Program-made: the position numbers and the translations under genes
From: Microvirga pudoricolor
GTDB taxonomy: Bacteria > Pseudomonadota > Alphaproteobacteria > Rhizobiales > Beijerinckiaceae
Length of the DNA stretch: 64,000 nucleotides
Assembly (NCBI RefSeq): GCF_016892705.1
Contig: NZ_JAFEMB010000002.1
Coordinates: 496,001 to 560,000, forward strand
Direction: 5' to 3'
The notes under the pieces: generated by a model
Seen by the model: the letters and a program-made list of their open reading frames with translations, nothing else
Databases searched by the model: none
Told to the model about the DNA's origin: nothing
Shown: piece after piece, positions 20,923 to 48,226 of the stretch
Layout: every line of letters begins with the position of its first letter
Numbering within the stretch: position 1 is the stretch's first letter

Positions 20923-22641
20923 TCAGACGACCTTGAAGTCGCTGGCGGTCAGCTTCAGGTTCTTGGCCAGCTTGGCGAACTGGACCGCCGGCAGATCGCC
21001 CTTGCCGTCGGGGTCGTAATAGAGCGCGCCACTCTTCTTCTTGTCGTAGAGGATCATATCCTTTGTGTCGGCGGCGGTCTTCTTGGTGTGGAAGTAGTCC
21101 TTCTTGAGGGTGCCGTCCTTGAGCAGGGCCTTTTTGGGGATCTTCTTGAAGATCGACTTGGCCAGCTCGATCGTGTCCTCCCTCACGTCGAAATCCGTGA
21201 TGGTGTCGATGTTCTTCTTGCCGAGCCTGGTGTTGAACACGAACGTGTCCGCGCCCAGTCCGCCCGTGAGCTTGTCGCTGCCCAAGCCGCCGGCCAAGCG
21301 GTCCACCCCCGCGCCGCCCACCATGACGTCCCTGCCACTTGTGCTGGGAATGAGGACGGGACTGACCACCGTGCCGACCCCGCCGACGCGAACGCCATTG
21401 ACGAACACGTTCTCGATGTCGGCGCTGAACTTCAGGGCCTGTGTAGAATAGACCGTGTCGACGCCGCCGCTGTCGATGATCAGGTCGCCGGCCGAATCGA
21501 CATAATAGGTGTCGTTGCCGTTCCCGCCGTCGAGCACGTCGTTGCCGCCCAGGCCGTCGAGGATGTCGTTGCCGTCTCCGCCGGTCAGACGGTTCGCGAG
21601 ATGATTTCCCGTCAGGATGTCGTCCGCGACGTTGCCGATCGCGTTTTCGATCGCGACGCCGTTGGCGATGGTGAATCCGCCCGCGACGCGTTTCTCCTGC
21701 GAGATGATGCCGCCCGCATAGGCATCGTTCGACGCCAGTGTCGCGGCTCGCAGGTCGATGGTGACCGGCGACTTGGACTTGGAGGCGCTGATGGTGTCGA
21801 TCCCGCCAGTATCCCAGATGCAGGTCCATCCGGTTCCGGACGCGTTCAGATGGGGAAGAACATAGACGTCGTCTCCCTTGGCAGTCTCGTTGTTGGGACC
21901 GTAGAGCTTCTGCATCGCCGCGATGTCGAAGGCTCCGAGACCCGTCTGCAATCCGTAGGTGCCGTCCGTGGGGAAGGCCGCAAGGTTATAATTGTAGGAC
22001 ATGACGGTGTACGGGCTCTGGTTGAGGCCGAACTGCCCGACGTCACTGGCCCCATTCACGCCCGGGAAGCGGGACGCGTCGTTCTCTTCCCCGCCGTCAT
22101 GGGGATGCGCTAGCCCCAAGCCGTGACCGATCTCATGGATGATCGTGTAGAGACCGAGGCTGCCCGGCGTGAAGTCGCCCCAGCTTTCGGCGAATCGATT
22201 GAAGTAGCCCCAGGCCTGGGTGTTCGTCGGGCCGTCATGGATGCCGAGGATCCCGGCGGGCAGCGGCGTCTTCCACCACACGATATCGGCCTCGCCTACC
22301 GTCTGGGCATCCTCGCCCTCGCCCGCGAACCGGATCCCGCTGACCTTGGTGTACTGGTCCATCGCGTAGATGATGGCATTGATATCTCTCTGATAAATCG
22401 AAGGATTCCAGTTGCCCATTGTCCCATCGTCGGAAACGAAGTCGTACTTGACGCCGGTCTCCGGATCTTGGCCTTGCATGCTGGGACCATGGACTTCGAT
22501 GGCCGCATCGATGTCCGACGCCTCACCCAGCCAAGCTTTCAGGGGACCGGTGTTCATGTCCCAGACCTTGCCGCCCCAGATGACCGAATCCAGATAGACG
22601 CTCCCATAGCCCGTACCGGCGACATTCTTCGTCAGAGTCAT
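20923..22641 (-). CDS. Secreted M10 (serralysin-like) zinc metallopeptidase with RTX repeats
   Basis: Extracellular protease of 572 residues from the ATG at 22641, which follows GTGGGA. The catalytic zinc site HEIGHGLGLAH is at about residues 169-179, and the Met-turn is SPYTVMSYNYN. A peptidase C-terminal region with glycine/aspartate RTX nonapeptides follows (GGDGNDILDGLGGND near residue 355 and a second set near 445). There is no N-terminal signal peptide. The C-terminus LTASDFKVV fits a type I secretion signal. No type I ABC exporter, membrane fusion protein or inhibitor gene is nearby, so secretion must depend on a distant locus. Confidence 0.92.
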   Translation of the reverse strand: MTLTKNVAGTGYGSVYLDSVIWGGKVWDMNTGPLKAWLGEASDIDAAIEVHGPSMQGQDPETGVKYDFVSDDGTMGNWNPSIYQRDINAIIYAMDQYTKVSGIRFAGEGEDAQTVGEADIVWWKTPLPAGILGIHDGPTNTQAWGYFNRFAESWGDFTPGSLGLYTIIHEIGHGLGLAHPHDGGEENDASRFPGVNGASDVGQFGLNQSPYTVMSYNYNLAAFPTDGTYGLQTGLGAFDIAAMQKLYGPNNETAKGDDVYVLPHLNASGTGWTCIWDTGGIDTISASKSKSPVTIDLRAATLASNDAYAGGIISQEKRVAGGFTIANGVAIENAIGNVADDILTGNHLANRLTGGDGNDILDGLGGNDVLDGGNGNDTYYVDSAGDLIIDSGGVDTVYSTQALKFSADIENVFVNGVRVGGVGTVVSPVLIPSTSGRDVMVGGAGVDRLAGGLGSDKLTGGLGADTFVFNTRLGKKNIDTITDFDVREDTIELAKSIFKKIPKKALLKDGTLKKDYFHTKKTAADTKDMILYDKKKSGALYYDPDGKGDLPAVQFAKLAKNLKLTASDFKVV

Positions 22642-23001
22642 AATTTCCCACTCGTCACAATTCACTAGGAGCATATTATATAACGTTATTCCGTTATGTC
22701 ATGTGACAGATCGCACCAACCGGCGGCGACGGATCGCGGCCGGGCCGGCTCTTCGCCATCCAGTCGGCCATCGCGCGGTTTAACGACCTCGCGCCGAGGA
22801 CGTGCGACCGAACCTGCGCATTGTGGCGCCCTTCACTCTCCTGGCCGCTCGAACGGGGCAGTATCGAGCCTTGAGGACAGGCGGCCGCCGCGTCAGAGGC
22901 GCCGCAACGGCAAGCATCGAGAAGACCGGTCTGTCTGCAGGGTGAACGCCAGCCCTGCCCTTCGGCCTCAGCGGGCGGTCGTTCGATCCAGGAGAGCTGC
23001 C
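22642..23001. other. Intergenic region between metallopeptidase and LysE genes
   Basis: About 360 bp without a supported gene. The part next to the metallopeptidase start is AT-rich (TATTATATAACGTTATTCC near 22675) and is the likely promoter region for that gene. The remainder is GC-rich and holds the leader of the LysE-type gene. An open frame runs through it but shows no family resemblance. Confidence 0.5.
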
Positions 23002-29319: not shown

Positions 29320-30948
29320 ATGACGTTATCCACTCTCGAGTTGAGCCTGATGTACCACGAAGCAACCTATGGCGGGAGTGCAGGTTACGGCGGATCGCAG
29401 GTCGGCAACGTGGTCGGCAATGGGGTCGATTGGAACGGCATCTTCGGAGGCAGTGGCAGCCAAGACGGAACCGGTGGCTCCGGAGATGCTGGTACCGGCA
29501 ACTCTCCAAGTGATGGCGGGACGTCCGCAGGAGCAAGTGACGGGGGAACACAGGCACCGAAGCCGAAAACTACGCAATTCAGAGATAAAAATGGAAATCC
29601 CATCGATCTCAAAATGTATCACTATTATCTAAAACATGCACCTGGCATCGATGCTTACTATAACGGGACCTTCAAAAACGAAGAAGGGAATTTGGAGTAC
29701 TGCGATGGATGGGTCATCAAGTACGGAGAACCCTTCAAGCTTCCAAACTGTCCCAACATCTTTGTCAGTGGGATCTGGCATTCCGATGAGACGGACTACG
29801 CGCCGCGCGCAATGTCAGTATCGCAAAAGTATACGCTCACTGAAAATGGCCAGCACATCGTCATTGCAGCGCAGATTCTTCTGAACGGCGACGATCACAA
29901 GCAAGGCACCTATGACAATGACCTGATCTTCGCGGGCGGCGGGAACGATGTCATCGCGGCCGGCGCAAACGACGATGTCGTTTTCGGCGAGAGCGGCTTC
30001 GATCTCCTGAAGGGCGAGGATGGCGAGGATACCTTGCTCGGAGGCTCTGGCGACGATGTCCTCTTCGGCGGCAGGGGGAACGACTATCTCGAAGGCCAGG
30101 GCGACAACGATGTGCTGAGCGGCGATGAGGGAATGGACTATCTCGGCGGCGGCGCCGGCAACGACACTCTCGGCGGCGGCAAGGGCGACGATGTCCTCGA
30201 CGGCGGCGGCGGCCATGACGTGCTTTGGGGAGGGTCAGGTCACGACGTCCTCGTCGGCAATGACGGCAATGACTGGTTCGCGGGCGAAGAGGGCGACGAT
30301 GTGATCGAAGGCGGCGCCGGGAACGACGGCGTCTGCGCGGGCATCGGCAATGACAGCGTCAACGGCGGCGCCGACAACGATACCATCTTCGGCGAGGACG
30401 GGGACGATTTCCTCAACGGCGAGAGCGGCAACGACGTCATCTCCGGCGGCAACGGCAGCGATGTGGTTTGGGCAGGGCTGAACGACGACAGCGTCAAGGG
30501 TGATGCCGGCAACGACTCGCTCTGGGGCGAGCAGGGCAACGACACGATCATCGGCGGGAACGGCAACGACCACCTGCTCGGCGGCGACGGCAACGATTAC
30601 CTCGACATGGATTGCGGCGCGGCCGCCGGGGCCGACATCCTCGACGGGGGCTACGGCGACGACATCCTCATCGGCGACGGGGTCGGCTCGCTGCTGATCG
30701 GCGGCTGGGGCCGGGACACCTACCACATCCGGCCCTGGGCCAAGACCACCATCGCGGACTTCGCCGCCGGTGCCGACGATTACGAGAAGATCGTCGTCTA
30801 CAAGAGCGTGTTCGCCGATTATCAGGCGCTGATGCAGACGGCGCGGCAGGTGGGCCACGATACGGTCATCGCCAAGGGCGAGTTCAGCCTCACCCTGACC
30901 GGCGTGAGCAAGACCAGCATGCACACCAACGACGTGCTCTTCATCTGA
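29320..30948 (+). CDS. Large RTX (hemolysin-type calcium-binding) secreted protein
   Basis: A 542-residue protein without a signal peptide. Residues 1-90 are Gly/Ser/Thr-rich, residues about 90-185 form a domain I do not recognise (with KMYHYYLKHAPGIDAYYNG), and residues about 190-445 are some fifteen tandem RTX nonapeptide units (GGxGNDxLxG pattern) that bind calcium in the beta-roll. The end, HTNDVLFI, fits a type I secretion signal. The first third is AT-richer than the repeat part. There is no catalytic motif, so it may be a structural or adhesive surface protein. No exporter genes are nearby. Confidence 0.9.
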   Translation: MTLSTLELSLMYHEATYGGSAGYGGSQVGNVVGNGVDWNGIFGGSGSQDGTGGSGDAGTGNSPSDGGTSAGASDGGTQAPKPKTTQFRDKNGNPIDLKMYHYYLKHAPGIDAYYNGTFKNEEGNLEYCDGWVIKYGEPFKLPNCPNIFVSGIWHSDETDYAPRAMSVSQKYTLTENGQHIVIAAQILLNGDDHKQGTYDNDLIFAGGGNDVIAAGANDDVVFGESGFDLLKGEDGEDTLLGGSGDDVLFGGRGNDYLEGQGDNDVLSGDEGMDYLGGGAGNDTLGGGKGDDVLDGGGGHDVLWGGSGHDVLVGNDGNDWFAGEEGDDVIEGGAGNDGVCAGIGNDSVNGGADNDTIFGEDGDDFLNGESGNDVISGGNGSDVVWAGLNDDSVKGDAGNDSLWGEQGNDTIIGGNGNDHLLGGDGNDYLDMDCGAAAGADILDGGYGDDILIGDGVGSLLIGGWGRDTYHIRPWAKTTIADFAAGADDYEKIVVYKSVFADYQALMQTARQVGHDTVIAKGEFSLTLTGVSKTSMHTNDVLFI

Positions 30949-42178: not shown

Positions 42179-43564
42179 TTATTCGGCGGCTTCGGCGGCC
42201 TTGCGCCCACGAGATTGGCTCTCGCGCTTGATCAGCTCCGAGGTCAAGAAGGCGATTTCCAGGGCCTGCTCGGCGTTGAGGCGCGGATCGCAATAGGTGT
42301 GGTAGCGGTCCATGAGATCCGCGTCGGTGAGCGCGCGGGCGCCGCCGGTGCATTCCGTCACGTTCTTGCCGGTCATCTCCAGGTGAATGCCGCCCGCATG
42401 GGTCCCCTCGGCCTGGTGGACCGCGAAGAAGTTGCGCACCTCGCCCATCACGCTCTCGAACGGACGGGTCTTGTAGCCCGAGGCCGCCTTGATGGTGTTG
42501 CCGTGCATGGGGTCGCTCGACCACACGACCGAGCGCCCTTCCCGCTTCACGGCGCGCACGAGGCCCGGCAGGTGGTCGAACACCTTATCGGCGCCGAAGC
42601 GGCAGATCAGGGTCAGGCGGCCCGGCTCGTTCTCCGGGTTCAGGAGGTCGATGAGCTTCAGGAGTTCGTCGGGCTTCAGCGACGGGCCGCATTTCAGGCC
42701 GATCGGGTTCTTGATGCCCCGCATGTATTCCACATGGGCATGGTCCGGCTGGCGGGTGCGGTCGCCGATCCAGAGCATGTGGCCGGAGGTGGCGTACCAG
42801 TCGCCCGTGGTGGAATCCACGCGGGTCATGGATTCCTCGTAGCCCAGCAGCAGCGCCTCGTGGCTGGTGTAGAAATCCGTCGAGCGCATCTCCGGATGGG
42901 TCTCGGGGTCGATGCCGATGGCGCGCATGAAGGCGATGGATTCGGTGATCCGCTCGGCCAGCTCGCTGTAGCGCGAGGATTGGGGCGAGTCCTTCACGAA
43001 GCCCAGCATCCAGCGATGCGCGTTCTCGAGATTGGCGTAGCCGCCCGTCGCGAAGGCGCGGATCAGATTGAGGGTCGCGGCCGACTGGCGGTAGGCCGAG
43101 ATCTGCCGCTGCGGGTCGGGAATGCGCGATTCCGGCGTGAAGTCGATATCGTTGATGATGTCGCCCCGGTAGCTCGGCAGCTCGACGCCGTTCACGGTCT
43201 CGGTGTCGGAGGAACGCGGCTTGGCGAACTGGCCCGCGGAACGGCCGACCTTCACCACGGGCGAGCCGCCGGCAAACGTCATCACCACGGCCATCTGGAG
43301 GAAAAGCCGGAAGAAATCGCGGATGTTATCGGCGGAATGCTCCGCGAAGCTCTCGGCGCAATCGCCGCCCTGGAGCAGGAACGCCTCCCCGGCCGCCACC
43401 TTCGCCAGGGTGCGCTTGAGCTTGCGCGCCTCACCGGCGAAGACCAGCGGCGGATATCCGGCGAGGTCCTTCTCGACGTTCTTCAGCACCTCAAGGTCCG
43501 GATAGGCTGGAACCTGCTGAATCGGCTTGTCTCTCCAGCTGCTCGGTGTCCACCGCGCGGTCAT
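42179..43564 (-). CDS. aroG: Class II 3-deoxy-7-phosphoheptulonate (DAHP) synthase
   Basis: Condenses phosphoenolpyruvate and erythrose 4-phosphate, the first step of the shikimate pathway. The 461-residue length and the motifs [39 protein letters not shown] and [20 protein letters not shown] (metal-binding H and E) belong to the plant-like class II enzymes, unrelated in sequence to E. coli AroF/G/H. The start gives [17 protein letters not shown], which is family-typical. It is monocistronic. The symbol aroG follows mycobacterial usage; other names are in use. Confidence 0.95.
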
Positions 43565-43718: not shown

Positions 43719-45095
43719 TCAGGAAACAAGTTTCCGAGCAGCCAGCTTTCGACGTTCGCGACGGTTAAGCTTGCTCGGCGGGGTCATAAAATTTGCATAA
43801 GGTGTTCTGACCGGCGCATCCGCGATCTCGGCCTGCTCGCGGTCCAATATTTCTGCCACCCAAGTTGGCGCAAAGGATCTGCCATCTAGGGAAACGACCC
43901 AGTCTTGTTGAAAAGGAGCATCCAACGGGGTGCCATCAGGCCAGGGTGTCGCCTCGAAACGATGCCCATTGGAACTCTCGATGGCTCCGTTTGAATGGAT
44001 TGTATAACCTTGATGCCGCAACACTTTGGCGAGGCTCCAACCTTCTAGCGACCCATCGGAGCGCCTCTTGGCAGTGCAGATTATTCCTGCCCGCACGACA
44101 GCCTTATGGGGGACCCCAGCCTTATCGGTGAAAAGAACGGTTATTGGAGCATCGTCATCTGAGCCGCACACAGCTCCGGTTCTCGCTCTCACCAGCACAG
44201 GCCCACCCTGACGCTCTTCGACGATCATTCGATCCTGCCGAAGCACATCAATGATCTTCAGCCATTCCCCCTGATCAGAAAGCACGAGGTGACCTGGGGT
44301 CATGTGGAGACCGCGCAGGTTGAGAACCTTGTTGGTTACATTTTGGAAGGTGCGACGCACTCGCGCCGCCTTTTTGCGTGTGAGACCGTTATCCGCGATG
44401 GGATCGAAAGCCATGACCTCATCGCCAGTTCTGATATCCTGAATAGGCTTTTCAGTGCCGTCCACCATGAGGATCATCGTATCGGCTAGAAAACAGTTCC
44501 TCTGGTCTACCCCATTGACGGGCATGTTGTTGTGATTGAGTGGCCTCCCCCAAAAGTCGACCGGACGCGGATCCCAGACGAATTTCCCGGCCAGTGGATG
44601 GGGCTTACTCAATAACTGCCTGTCATATTTGACATCGATAGTGATGTTACTGATTCCGAGTGAACTAATTCTGCTGAAAAACGCGACTTCCTCATGCCCG
44701 AGATCAATACAACCCGCCGAGCCATACCAATCACCGCCGTGAACGGAAAAGCCGGTGCGGCCAAAAGTGTTGGTGGTGGCAGATGGGGTTAAGAACGCTC
44801 GCTCGACTCCCCATGATACGGTACCTCCGTACCACGCTCCAAATTTTTCGCCTAGTGTAACGCCACTCAACTTACCAATATTGCCGATTATGTTATCCAG
44901 GCCAGTAACCGTCTGTATATCCGAAGTGTTGAAACTCCACTGCCCCTCTGGAATTGGTCCAACATCCTTCAGAGCGGTTTCGCTTGGCGATTGAGAACCT
45001 GGGCGACCCGAAACTGCACTCCAACTATCGACGACTCTGCCATTTTGCTGAAGGCTCACTTGATATCCATCGAAGCTTAACTTGTATTCTGACAT
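43719..45095 (-). CDS. Tlde1-like L,D-transpeptidase-fold protein fused to a Hint domain
   Basis: A 458-residue two-domain protein in an AT-rich island. Residues about 1-160 resemble the Tlde1/DUF2778 family of type VI effectors that cut or exchange tetrapeptide stems. The catalytic histidine is H119 (FSVHGGDWYG) and the nucleophile C129 (GSAGCIDL). From C201 (NCFLADTMILMVDG) a Hint domain follows, with GDEVMAFDP and the T-x-x-H motif TPGH at 266-269, expected to self-cleave at its N-terminal cysteine and release the enzyme part. There is no clear terminal HN pair, no signal peptide and no PAAR/VgrG domain. A small membrane protein gene is immediately upstream. An effector role is inference. 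Confidence 0.8.
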   Translation of the reverse strand: MSEYKLSFDGYQVSLQQNGRVVDSWSAVSGRPGSQSPSETALKDVGPIPEGQWSFNTSDIQTVTGLDNIIGNIGKLSGVTLGEKFGAWYGGTVSWGVERAFLTPSATTNTFGRTGFSVHGGDWYGSAGCIDLGHEEVAFFSRISSLGISNITIDVKYDRQLLSKPHPLAGKFVWDPRPVDFWGRPLNHNNMPVNGVDQRNCFLADTMILMVDGTEKPIQDIRTGDEVMAFDPIADNGLTRKKAARVRRTFQNVTNKVLNLRGLHMTPGHLVLSDQGEWLKIIDVLRQDRMIVEERQGGPVLVRARTGAVCGSDDDAPITVLFTDKAGVPHKAVVRAGIICTAKRRSDGSLEGWSLAKVLRHQGYTIHSNGAIESSNGHRFEATPWPDGTPLDAPFQQDWVVSLDGRSFAPTWVAEILDREQAEIADAPVRTPYANFMTPPSKLNRRERRKLAARKLVS

Positions 45096-45106
45096 CGCCG
45101 ATCCAC

Positions 45107-45493
45107 CTACATATCACGACATAAGAAAAATGAAACAGGCCTGCCTGCAACGGCCATGCAGACAATAGAACTGACGAAAGACGCGGCCAAAAAAAACTTA
45201 ATACTTCTAATATGATATAATATACCTATAGAAACAATATAGATCAATATATATCCAATCAATATATATAGATGCATACTGAAATTTAGATCTATATTAG
45301 TATGACATTTTCCATCAGAGAAGCCTATTCCTCTTTTTAAATACGCCTGCTGGGCGAAAAAACTATCTACTATCACAATCGTCCACGGCAGTTGGAAAAG
45401 GAATGCTGATGCGAGTTTTATGACTAACGCCCGACTTAAGATCGCCTTAGCCGTACATAGCCCTCTACGAATAAATTGACTTATGTCGACCAT
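45107..45493 (-). CDS. Small AT-rich multi-helix membrane protein, candidate immunity partner
   Basis: A 128-residue protein from the ATG at 45493, which has AGG six bases upstream; a longer frame to 45538 is possible. Three hydrophobic stretches are visible (about residues 20-45, 75-95 and 100-120), interrupted by a Lys/Gly/Cys-containing loop. It resembles nothing I can name. It ends 11 bp before the Tlde1-Hint gene and shares its very low GC content, so the two were probably acquired together and co-expressed. Protection of the cell envelope from the neighbouring enzyme is a hypothesis. Confidence 0.6.
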   Translation of the reverse strand: MVDISQFIRRGLCTAKAILSRALVIKLASAFLFQLPWTIVIVDSFFAQQAYLKRGIGFSDGKCHTNIDLNFSMHLYILIGYILIYIVSIGILYHIRSIKFFLAASFVSSIVCMAVAGRPVSFFLCRDM

Positions 45494-45542
45494 AAAAACC
45501 TGCCACGAGATCACAACCGCTAGTTTTTCCCTAAGCAAATAT

Positions 45543-45552
45543 CAGTATACTG
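45543..45552. promoter_or_regulatory. Palindrome in the promoter region of the AT-rich gene pair
   Basis: CAGTATACTG is a perfect palindrome about 50 bp upstream of the membrane-protein ATG, inside a longer AT-rich dyad GCAAAT (45535-45540) and ATTTGC (45565-45570). It is a likely promoter or operator region. Confidence 0.35.
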
Positions 45553-45593
45553 TTATATAGTAAAATTTGCGATGCCGGTCAACGGACGGAACA

Positions 45594-46979
45594 CTAACCC
45601 ACCGCCACCGGCGTCTTCACCAAGAAGGGCGTCCGCATGGTCACGAGCTCCTCGGCGGCCGTGGGGTGCACCGCCACGGTGCGGTCGAAATCGGCCTTGG
45701 TGGCCCCCATGGTGACGGCGACGCCCGCGAGCTGGATCATCTCGCCCGCGTCGTGGCCGACGATATGGACGCCCACCACCTTGTCGGTGGCCCGGTCGAC
45801 GAGGAGCTTCATGAGCACCCGGTCCTTCGAACCCGATATCGTCGCCTTCATGGGCCGGAAGGCGGTCTTGTACACGTCGATCTCGCCGTAATTGGCCCGC
45901 GCCAGCCCTTCGCTGCAGCCGATCACGCCGATTTCGGGGGTCGAGAACACCGCCGTGGGGATCAGGTCGTGCTCGACCATGGTGGGCTTGTCCCCGAAGA
46001 CGGTGTCGGCGAAGGCGTGGCCTTCGCGGATGGCGATGGGGGTGAGGTTCGCCCGGTTGGTCACGTCGCCCACCGCGTAGATCGACGGAATCAGGGTCTG
46101 CGAATAGGCGTCCACCACCACGGCCCCGACCTCGTCGGTGACCACGCCTGCGTTTTCCAGGCCCAGGCCGCTCGTATTGGGACGCCGCCCGGTGGCGACG
46201 AGCACCTGATCGACGGTCAATACCGACCCGTCCGACAGGGTGGCGGCGATGCCGTCCGGACGCTTGTCGAGGCGGGTCACCATCTTGCCAAGTTCCAGGC
46301 GGATGCCCCGCGCCGCATAGGCCTCGCCCAGGGCGTCGCGCACATCCTCGTCGAAGCCGCGCAGGAGCTTGTCGCCCCGGTGCAGAAGGGTCGTCTCGGA
46401 CCCTAAGCCGTTGAACACGCCCGCGAACTCCACCGCGATATAGCCGCCGCCGACCACGAGGATGCGCTTAGGCAGTTCCTGCAGTTCGAAGACCTCGTTG
46501 GACGTAATGGCTAGCTCGCCGCCCGGGATGGCGGGCTCCATGGTCGGGTGGGCGCCCACCGCGATCAGGATGACGCGGGCCGTGACGGTGCGGTTGGTCC
46601 GGGTGAGCCGCACCGTGTGCGGGTCCTCGATCACGGCGTGGCTGTCCACGATCTCGACGCCCGCCTTGTCCAGGTTGGCGCGGTAGATCCCCTCGAGCCG
46701 GTCGATCTCCAGGCTCTTGTTGCGGATCAGGGTTGCCCAGTTGAATTTCGGCGCGTCGAGGGTCCAGCCGAAGCCTTCCGCTTCCTCGAACTCGTGGGCG
46801 AAGCGGCTGGCATAGACCATGAGCTTCTTGGGCACGCAGCCCCGGATCACGCAGGTGCCGCCGACCCGGTATTCCTCGGCGATCATCACCCGGGCGCCGT
46901 AGCCCGCCGCGATCCGGGCCGCGCGTACGCCGCCCGAACCGGCTCCGATGACGAAGAGATCGACGTCGTAGGCGCTCAT
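45594..46979 (-). CDS. gor: Glutathione-disulfide reductase
   Basis: NADPH-dependent flavoenzyme that regenerates reduced glutathione. The 461-residue protein has the FAD loop GAGSGGVRAARIAAGYG, the redox-active disulfide GGTCVIRGCVPKKL, a second dinucleotide fold GGGYIAVEFAG and the C-terminal active-site HPTAAEELVT. The ATG at 46979 overlaps the stop of the upstream O-antigen ligase-like gene (ATGA), so they are co-transcribed although functionally unrelated. Confidence 0.96.
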   Translation of the reverse strand: MSAYDVDLFVIGAGSGGVRAARIAAGYGARVMIAEEYRVGGTCVIRGCVPKKLMVYASRFAHEFEEAEGFGWTLDAPKFNWATLIRNKSLEIDRLEGIYRANLDKAGVEIVDSHAVIEDPHTVRLTRTNRTVTARVILIAVGAHPTMEPAIPGGELAITSNEVFELQELPKRILVVGGGYIAVEFAGVFNGLGSETTLLHRGDKLLRGFDEDVRDALGEAYAARGIRLELGKMVTRLDKRPDGIAATLSDGSVLTVDQVLVATGRRPNTSGLGLENAGVVTDEVGAVVVDAYSQTLIPSIYAVGDVTNRANLTPIAIREGHAFADTVFGDKPTMVEHDLIPTAVFSTPEIGVIGCSEGLARANYGEIDVYKTAFRPMKATISGSKDRVLMKLLVDRATDKVVGVHIVGHDAGEMIQLAGVAVTMGATKADFDRTVAVHPTAAEELVTMRTPFLVKTPVAVG

Positions 46980-48226
46980 AATTCCGTCTCCTGCGGCCTT
47001 GTCCCGGCCGCTCTCATCCACACGATGGAGGCCCCGATGGCGGCGGCCCACCAGCCCTGCCACGCCCCGTGTCCCACCATGCCCACGCTCAAGATGGCCA
47101 TGACGAGAGCTAAACTTAAGGCGCGGATTTCGCGGGGCAGCCCGTCGATCCGGCGCATGGCCAGGAGGCCGATCAGGCCGACCAGAAAAGCCCCGACGGC
47201 TCCGAGCTCGACCCAGACCTGGATCGGCGCGTTATGCGGGTGCCCGACGCCGAGCAGGACCCGGTTCTCCTCCGGGACCTTGGCCGTGACGGAGGTCTCG
47301 CGGAGGAGCGGGCTCGCCCCGAACCCGGCGCCGAGGACCGGCTGGACCCGGATCGCCGCGTCGAAGCTGTGCCAGATGTCGACCCGGGCGCGGGAGTGGT
47401 TGCGGGAAAAGCTCTTGTGAACCCCATCCGAGATCAGGGCATCGCTGAGCGGCCCGAAGACGGGCGCCAGGGCCAACATCCCGACGAAGGCGACCCGCAC
47501 GAGAGTAGACGTCAGGCCCGGCGCCACCCAGGCGAGGGCCAGGGTCAGCGTCCCCACGACAAGGCCGAGCACCCCCGCTCCGCTGTCGGAATTGACGATC
47601 GCGAGGCTGACGACGGCGAACAGCGCGAACGCCAGGATCCGGCCCGGCCGCACCCGGCCCGTGAACCAGGCCGCGATGGCAGGCAGGACCACCAGGAGGG
47701 TGAGGCTCGTCCGGTTGAAGATGTAGCTGTCCCCCCGCATGCCGAGCGCCTTGCGCAGGACCAGGTCGGAGCGCAGGTCCATGAGCATGAGGAGCTGGGA
47801 CAGGCAGACCGAAACGACGAGGAGCCAGAAAGCCTGGACGGTGAGGCGCCGGGGCAGCGCGAGGCAGAGCGCGAACGCGAAGGCCACCGGCAGCCAGAAC
47901 TCGCCCACCGCGGCGAGGGACAATTCCCGCACCTCGCTCCAGCTCACCGACAGGAGGCTCCAGGCCAGGAGGGCGCCGACTGCCAGACCGAGCGGTGATC
48001 GCAAAGATGTGTTGGCACGCCGGAGGGTCTCGCCGAGCCTTCCCTCGCTCCACAGGGCCGCCACCGCGAAGGCGGCGCCGAGGCCCAGGAAGAGCGGGCT
48101 CGACCGATGCGCGACCGTCATGCCCACCGGCATGACGCCGAGGATAATCATGGAGGCCCGCCAGAGGGCGTCCGTGACCCTGGCGCCCGCCAGGGGCTTC
48201 GAGGTGGATTCGGAAAGGGTGCTCAC
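46976..48226 (-). CDS. O-antigen ligase/polymerase-family membrane protein
   Basis: A 416-residue protein with about ten or more membrane helices. The large periplasmic loop with the Wzy_C-type signature HPHNAPIQVWVELGAVGA (about residues 325-345) and the preceding arginine-containing segment (HSRARVDIWHSFDAAIRVQP) are typical of WaaL/Wzy-like polysaccharide ligases and polymerases. The specific glycan is unknown. It is directly upstream of gor, overlapping by four bases. Confidence 0.88.
   Translation of the reverse strand: MSTLSESTSKPLAGARVTDALWRASMIILGVMPVGMTVAHRSSPLFLGLGAAFAVAALWSEGRLGETLRRANTSLRSPLGLAVGALLAWSLLSVSWSEVRELSLAAVGEFWLPVAFAFALCLALPRRLTVQAFWLLVVSVCLSQLLMLMDLRSDLVLRKALGMRGDSYIFNRTSLTLLVVLPAIAAWFTGRVRPGRILAFALFAVVSLAIVNSDSGAGVLGLVVGTLTLALAWVAPGLTSTLVRVAFVGMLALAPVFGPLSDALISDGVHKSFSRNHSRARVDIWHSFDAAIRVQPVLGAGFGASPLLRETSVTAKVPEENRVLLGVGHPHNAPIQVWVELGAVGAFLVGLIGLLAMRRIDGLPREIRALSLALVMAILSVGMVGHGAWQGWWAAAIGASIVWMRAAGTRPQETEL

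Follow-up and report, generated by a model that had tools for sequence, protein, structure and literature searches.

Two neighbouring genes in the window, the 64,000-nucleotide stretch of Microvirga pudoricolor DNA analysed here, are best explained as a horizontally acquired toxin-immunity cassette aimed at other bacteria and laid out as the mirror image of known polymorphic toxins, a reading to which we give a probability of roughly 0.6. The cassette comprises a gene for a 458-residue protein (43719-45095, minus strand), in which a Tlde1-type domain is followed by half of a Hint domain and a further C-terminal domain, and a gene for a small membrane protein lying 11 bp upstream of it (45107-45493, minus strand). 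The argument draws on the anatomy of the two genes, the homology of both halves of the effector, the varied N-terminal domains and neighbours among its relatives, and an insertion site that is empty in most species examined, all of which were observed. What we infer beyond this is that the effector is toxic, that its neighbour confers immunity, that the protein is cleaved at C201 and that it is exported, most likely through a type I system.

The two 1-kb bins that cover the island have a GC content of 51-53%, most other bins 60-73%, and the lowest-GC kilobase of the window is located at 44598-45597 (43.8%; median over all 1-kb windows, 66.9%). An earlier note on this DNA had singled out the row 45241-45300 as AT-rich; a recount gave the same 13 G or C in 60 bases, and 64 of the 63,941 60-bp windows were as G/C-poor or poorer, all of them inside 45185-45311. 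The motifs it had listed for the 458-residue protein, namely H119, C129 (in GSAGCIDL), C201 and TPGH at 266-269, were likewise all in place. The small open reading frame encodes 128 residues from its ATG; if translation began instead at the TTG at 45538, the product would have 143.

By homology, the N-terminal part of the effector (residues 1-165, with H119 and C129; 44601-45095, minus strand) is a Tlde1-type domain (PF10908), as had been proposed. A Pfam scan of the complete protein returned Tlde1_dom at E 3.9e-6 and 27.7 bits, under the cut-off of 30.1, and a single-sequence search of the PDB did not retrieve Tlde1a. We then compared with the PDB a three-sequence profile (A3), built from the window domain and its relatives on a Cupriavidus campinensis plasmid (34% identical) and on a human-gut scaffold filed as phage (42%). 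At E ≤ 1 the profile matched two distinct sequences, both Tlde1a (1.4e-7 and 2.3e-7), the first of them being the crystallised 7uma, with whose catalytic His and Cys H119 and C129 align. H119, G120, G121, G125-C129 and D131 are invariant in the three rows of A3, and H119 and C129 are invariant in alignment A7 as well. Two of seven relatives of the domain scored over the Tlde1 cut-off and two others over that of YkuD. The (S/T)HGC motif of Tlde1a is absent from the window domain, which has SAGC instead. The model of residues 1-199, built with 5 sequences, had a pLDDT of 38.6, and a first scan of viral contigs, made with one sequence, found no relative.

The Hint half starts at C201 and occupies residues 201-303 (44187-44495, minus strand), where structure comparison of the model supports the N-terminal half of a Hint/intein fold. 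Pfam recognised four Hint families in the protein, at E values from 2e-5 to 0.045, all under cut-off. In the block nomenclature of inteins, C201 corresponds to Cys-1 of block A and TPGH to the TxxH of block B, and both are invariant in the 23 rows of the half-Hint alignment (alignment A6 leaves out L046, L060 and L062-L066, which are incomplete or belong to a different type of Hint). The 458-residue protein has no blocks F and G and no closing H-N motif, and the similarity of its model to inteins stops near residue 105 of 140. No H-N dipeptide follows TPGH in 21 of the 23 proteins, that of the window included; the dipeptide is present in L055 and L057, outside a closing-type motif. The Hint module reported in the earlier note therefore stands from C201 onwards, but only as its N-terminal half. 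Residues 304-458 with the stop codon (43719-44186, minus strand) make up a further C-terminal domain with an Arg/Lys-rich tail (LNRRERRKLAARK); the model of this region is of high confidence as far as residue ~390, and the region is conserved together with the Hint half among relatives.

Judging from the alignments, the part kept between relatives is the Hint half and not the enzyme. The whole 458-residue query found a match in 9 of 101 related genomes. In three other Microvirga (G028, G042 and G044) the Hint half and tail matched at 56-70%; similarity to the window protein starts at query residue 195 in G044, 198 in G042 and further upstream, at 129, in G028, and the residues directly before C201 do not match between relatives. 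The clearest comparison is with M. lenta (G044), whose Hint half and tail are 62% identical to those of the window over 260 residues, whereas the N-terminal domains are unlike each other (best match of 20 residues, E 0.018), as are the small upstream proteins (E 31). Across 397 sampled genomes of the order, relatives of the constant part were present in 15 and BLAST-level relatives of the N-terminal part in one, the window's own, with none in the 396 others.

A scan of 84,980 genomes yielded 76 loci; the weaker matches L068-L114, mostly outside the Alphaproteobacteria, went through a motif scan only. Among 20 alphaproteobacterial relatives, the N-terminal region scored over a Pfam cut-off in three, each time with a different family: TseH in L049 (5e-20), phage lysozyme in L055 (3.6e-30) and Hydrolase_2, a SleB-type hydrolase, in L067 (7.2e-8). 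In L051, Colicin_M was matched under cut-off (1.3e-5). Because 16 of the 20 gave no convincing Pfam match in the region before the Hint half, a description of the whole family as cell-wall toxins is unsupported. A small same-strand open reading frame overlaps the effector frame or ends no more than 260 bp upstream of it in 15 of 23 loci, 13 of the 15 encoding a hydrophobic stretch and two only a signal-like N-terminus; no small upstream gene was seen in the remaining 8. As in polymorphic toxins, a constant part is thus found behind different N-terminal domains and beside different small genes, and the parts being exchanged would be toxins and immunity proteins.

Some of these loci have features of their own. 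In the effector gene copy of G042 (L004/L010), a break within the stretch that codes for the Hint leaves two separate frames. The first ~180 residues of the G028, G044 and G042 proteins (L002, L003 and L010) share AHGIISVR and SNSNAVIE motifs and have no Pfam match; as a guess, this domain is perhaps a papain-like amidase. G028 also carries a second secreted-looking small protein (L205, 10203-10604, minus strand), which by eye is similar to the effector's neighbour and has no effector beside it, possibly an orphan immunity gene.

Next, we considered the site at which the island lies. On one side is a minus-strand gene at 42179-43564, presumably for a class II DAHP synthase, which was found in 47 of 48 Microvirga genomes; on the other is a minus-strand gene at 45594-47063 that we take to encode glutathione reductase. 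The 47 genomes with the flanking gene provided 30 loci, 17 of them giving none. In 24 of the 30 the second gene adjoins the DAHP-synthase-like gene, the two being at most 1.5 kb apart with no Hint match; two, the window and M. lenta, have the island; and four show neither island nor empty site within the fetched flank. In M. lenta (same contig as L039) the island occupies the same site and the second flanking gene lies beyond it.

The third-position GC content (GC3) declines from the constant part through the toxin part to the small gene in the window (0.556, 0.530 and 0.357) and in two relatives, M. lenta (0.927, 0.646 and 0.508) and G028 (0.787, 0.470 and 0.403); the genes flanking the window island have values of 0.89 and 0.90. 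The values of M. lenta fit an exchange of the 5' cassette before a resident constant part, since there the constant part looks native and the toxin part and small gene do not. The whole island of the window looks newly acquired, because its constant part has a low GC3 too. Both the GC3 values and the 24 island-free loci agree with the horizontal acquisition that the earlier note had suggested. They also bear on another explanation, in which the protein is an enzyme that remodels the cell's own wall, the Hint-like domain is regulatory and the membrane protein either works with it or has nothing to do with it. Many housekeeping enzymes have L,D-transpeptidase folds, but an AT-rich island missing from most species examined, in which the constant part is preceded by N-terminal domains and neighbours that differ between relatives, makes such a domestic role improbable.

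The 128-residue protein upstream of the effector is a probable immunity protein by association, in line with the membrane immunity partner proposed before. A Kyte-Doolittle scan gave about three hydrophobic stretches. The protein had no match at E ≤ 1 in Pfam or NCBIfam, nor among plasmids, and its comparison with small membrane proteins encoded next to other genes of the Tlde1 type reached an hhalign probability of 0.6%. We checked 13 other Tlde1-type genes for neighbours and found that seven have a small one bearing hydrophobic stretches, five detected by script (L149, L152, L153, L155 and L156) and two by eye (L145 and L146). Five on viral contigs (two in L159; L160, L162 and L163) have a neighbour of ~200 residues with at most one hydrophobic stretch, and L154 has none listed; the pattern used missed L150, L151 and L161, and L157 and L158 were omitted for overlapping the region of L156. 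In G520 contig 14, L152 and L156 are tandem longer proteins that have their N-terminal region in common and end in a Tlde1-type domain; behind each lies a small protein of three to four helices. By eye, L145 (MT836786.1), filed as 'Bacteriophage sp.', resembles a bacterial chromosome around its Tlde1-type gene, behind which lie two small membrane proteins.

By what route could such a protein be exported? The earlier note had implied a type VI effector, in which case the pair would be a Tlde1-family effector and its immunity protein. Tlde1a of Salmonella is itself a type VI effector according to the available part of its description (PMC9638812), and the sheath protein TssC was present in 7 of the 22 genomes with a half-Hint gene. 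However, TssC (PF05943) had no match in the window's genome, which is 99.99% complete, or in any of the three Microvirga relatives that carry the same constant part; moreover, HINT is stated never to be found with type VI in the available part of Zhang et al. 2012 (PMC3482391). We therefore consider the type VI reading very improbable and set it aside. The basic tail had suggested type IV delivery, a candidate rejected when the VirB4 family was not found in the window's genome; VirB4 was present in 8 of the 22 host genomes.

Among relatives, the neighbouring genes point to type I secretion. Of 29 loci, 6 have type I genes or the acyltransferase HlyC within the flanks that were retrieved, a count in which L055 and L067 supplied the queries and in which matches of 33-36% in L041 and L047 were not included: L040, L042 and L046 have HlyB-like proteins (61-68%), L055 and L058 have HlyC, and L067 has HlyB, HlyD and HlyC. 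The contig of L046, filed under an Opitutaceae MAG, is possibly misbinned; its half-Hint gene is close to Roseomonas ones and its HlyB relative is the 68% match. HlyD exceeded the cut-off in all 22 host genomes and in 1 of 14 control genomes; the former figure says little, since HlyD is common in these bacteria. In the window's genome HlyD matches are listed at three places. HlyC was not found there and is present in 9 of the 22 host genomes, and BLAST matched none of HlyB, HlyD and HlyC within the window. The 458-residue protein itself has no RTX repeat. At least two open reading frames of the window do, at 14 and 21 kb from the cassette and with no shown link to it; both would encode probable type I substrates. 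They are located at 29320-30948 on the plus strand (HemolysinCabind 6.8e-66) and at 20923-22674 on the minus strand (HemolysinCabind 2.8e-11, Peptidase_M10_C 6.5e-11).

The missing half of the Hint fold (IntC) was sought with a 15-row profile, in all rows of which the closing H-N is invariant, in the 22 genomes with a half-Hint gene. The profile gave 12 matches in nine genomes and none in the other 13, among them the window's own, G042 and G044; a split-intein partner as a general rule was rejected on this count. Ten of the 12 matches were strong, the two weaker ones being left out of the following tally: in six the match shares its frame with the N-terminal half (IntN), and in four it stands without one. 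Each of the four unfused carriers (L194-L197), with no IntN in its own frame, adjoins a toxin-half-Hint gene and an HlyC gene; L194 and L195 also have HlyB and HlyD, L197 has an HlyD fragment and L196 reaches the contig end. Pfam recognised HlyB, HlyD and HlyC in L194, and RTX repeats in both L194 and L197. In the compact locus L194 (G471 contig 35, 1-16000; Sneathiellales), HlyB and HlyD come with a probable immunity gene, a Hydrolase_2-half-Hint gene, HlyC and a carrier, IntC-RTX, that is at least 2072 residues long. The residue after His-Asn is Ser in L194, Asp in L195, Glu in L196 and Thr in L197, so that splicing is plausible for two carriers and cleavage or docking for the others.

These split loci suggest an alternative in which the half-Hint serves as an N-intein whose partner is an RTX carrier with IntC, encoded by another gene; it would either join the toxin to the carrier or cleave in trans, with type I exit of the pair, and in that case the window copy would be an orphan cassette. 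The gene content of L194-L197 argues for it, as do the invariance of H-N in the IntC rows and of C201 and TPGH in the 23 IntN rows, and the end of the intein match near residue 105 of 140. Against it, IntC was not found in 13 of the 22 half-Hint genomes, the window's own among them, Asp or Glu after H-N in two of the four split carriers is ill-suited to splicing, and in six of the ten strong matches IntN and IntC belong to a single protein. We regard it as a doubtful explanation of the window protein, which has no visible partner because the IntC profile is unmatched in its genome; a carrier bearing the missing Hint half was not found there. Stated more widely, and just as tentatively, some Alphaproteobacteria may build type I-secreted toxins from two genes: interchangeable toxin-half-Hint cassettes, each bringing an immunity gene along, would be coupled or passed in trans to a separate IntC-RTX carrier; the window would hold a Tlde1 cassette whose carrier was lost or never present.

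In the preferred reading, a mirror-image toxin-immunity cassette, the exchangeable part would lie at the 5' side, with the immunity gene for the membrane protein first and the N-terminal toxin domain after it. The toxin would have a Tlde1-type L,D-transpeptidase/carboxypeptidase fold and, once in the periplasm, attack the stems of peptidoglycan. At the 3' side, the constant part would consist of the half-Hint, starting at the catalytic C201, and the conserved C-terminal domain with its basic tail, and thioester formation by the Hint half at the C201 junction would let the toxin go. If true, polymorphic toxins would extend to a layout of immunity gene, N-terminal toxin and Hint in which it is the 5' side that is exchanged, and which does not belong to type VI but is probably linked with type I secretion. 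The N-terminal domains of the half-Hint family that have no Pfam match would become candidate cell-envelope toxins, and the split loci would make it testable whether nature loads toxins onto a carrier by means of intein halves.

Finally, we compared the cassette with known systems. A literature search, covering few subscription papers and no bioRxiv preprints, found no description of an N-terminal toxin with a C-terminal half-Hint. With Tlde1a/Tldi1a of Salmonella (PF10908, PDB 7uma) the window pair shares a whole-domain profile match, the aligned catalytic His and Cys and an adjacent probable immunity gene. It differs, as far as the available part of PMC9638812 describes that pair, in having SAGC where the Tlde1a motif is (S/T)HGC, in the half-Hint fusion, in a genome where no type VI sheath protein was found, and in a multi-helix membrane protein as neighbour, whereas Tldi1a has a sec signal. 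The HINT polymorphic toxins, in the available part of their description (PMC3482391), have HINT directly before a C-terminal toxin and use a T2SS, T5SS, T7SS or TcdB/TcaC route. The window cassette resembles them in an exchangeable toxin domain beside a HINT module and in the adjacent immunity gene; unlike them, it has an N-terminal toxin, an upstream immunity gene and only half a Hint. Of the Hint-released toxin module that had been proposed for it, the adjacency of Hint and toxin domain holds, but the toxin precedes the Hint, the reverse of the described order. Compared with bacterial intein-like domains, hedgehog Hint and split inteins (2lwy, 1at0 and 4qfq, chain A of which we take to be IntN), the window protein is without blocks F and G, has no closing H-N and carries ~155 further residues of another kind. 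The single-chain alphaproteobacterial Hint-RTX proteins (for example L008, L012 and L198-L203) are alike in placing a variable N-terminal domain before the Hint, and differ in that their Hint is complete and runs into a long, often RTX, carrier.
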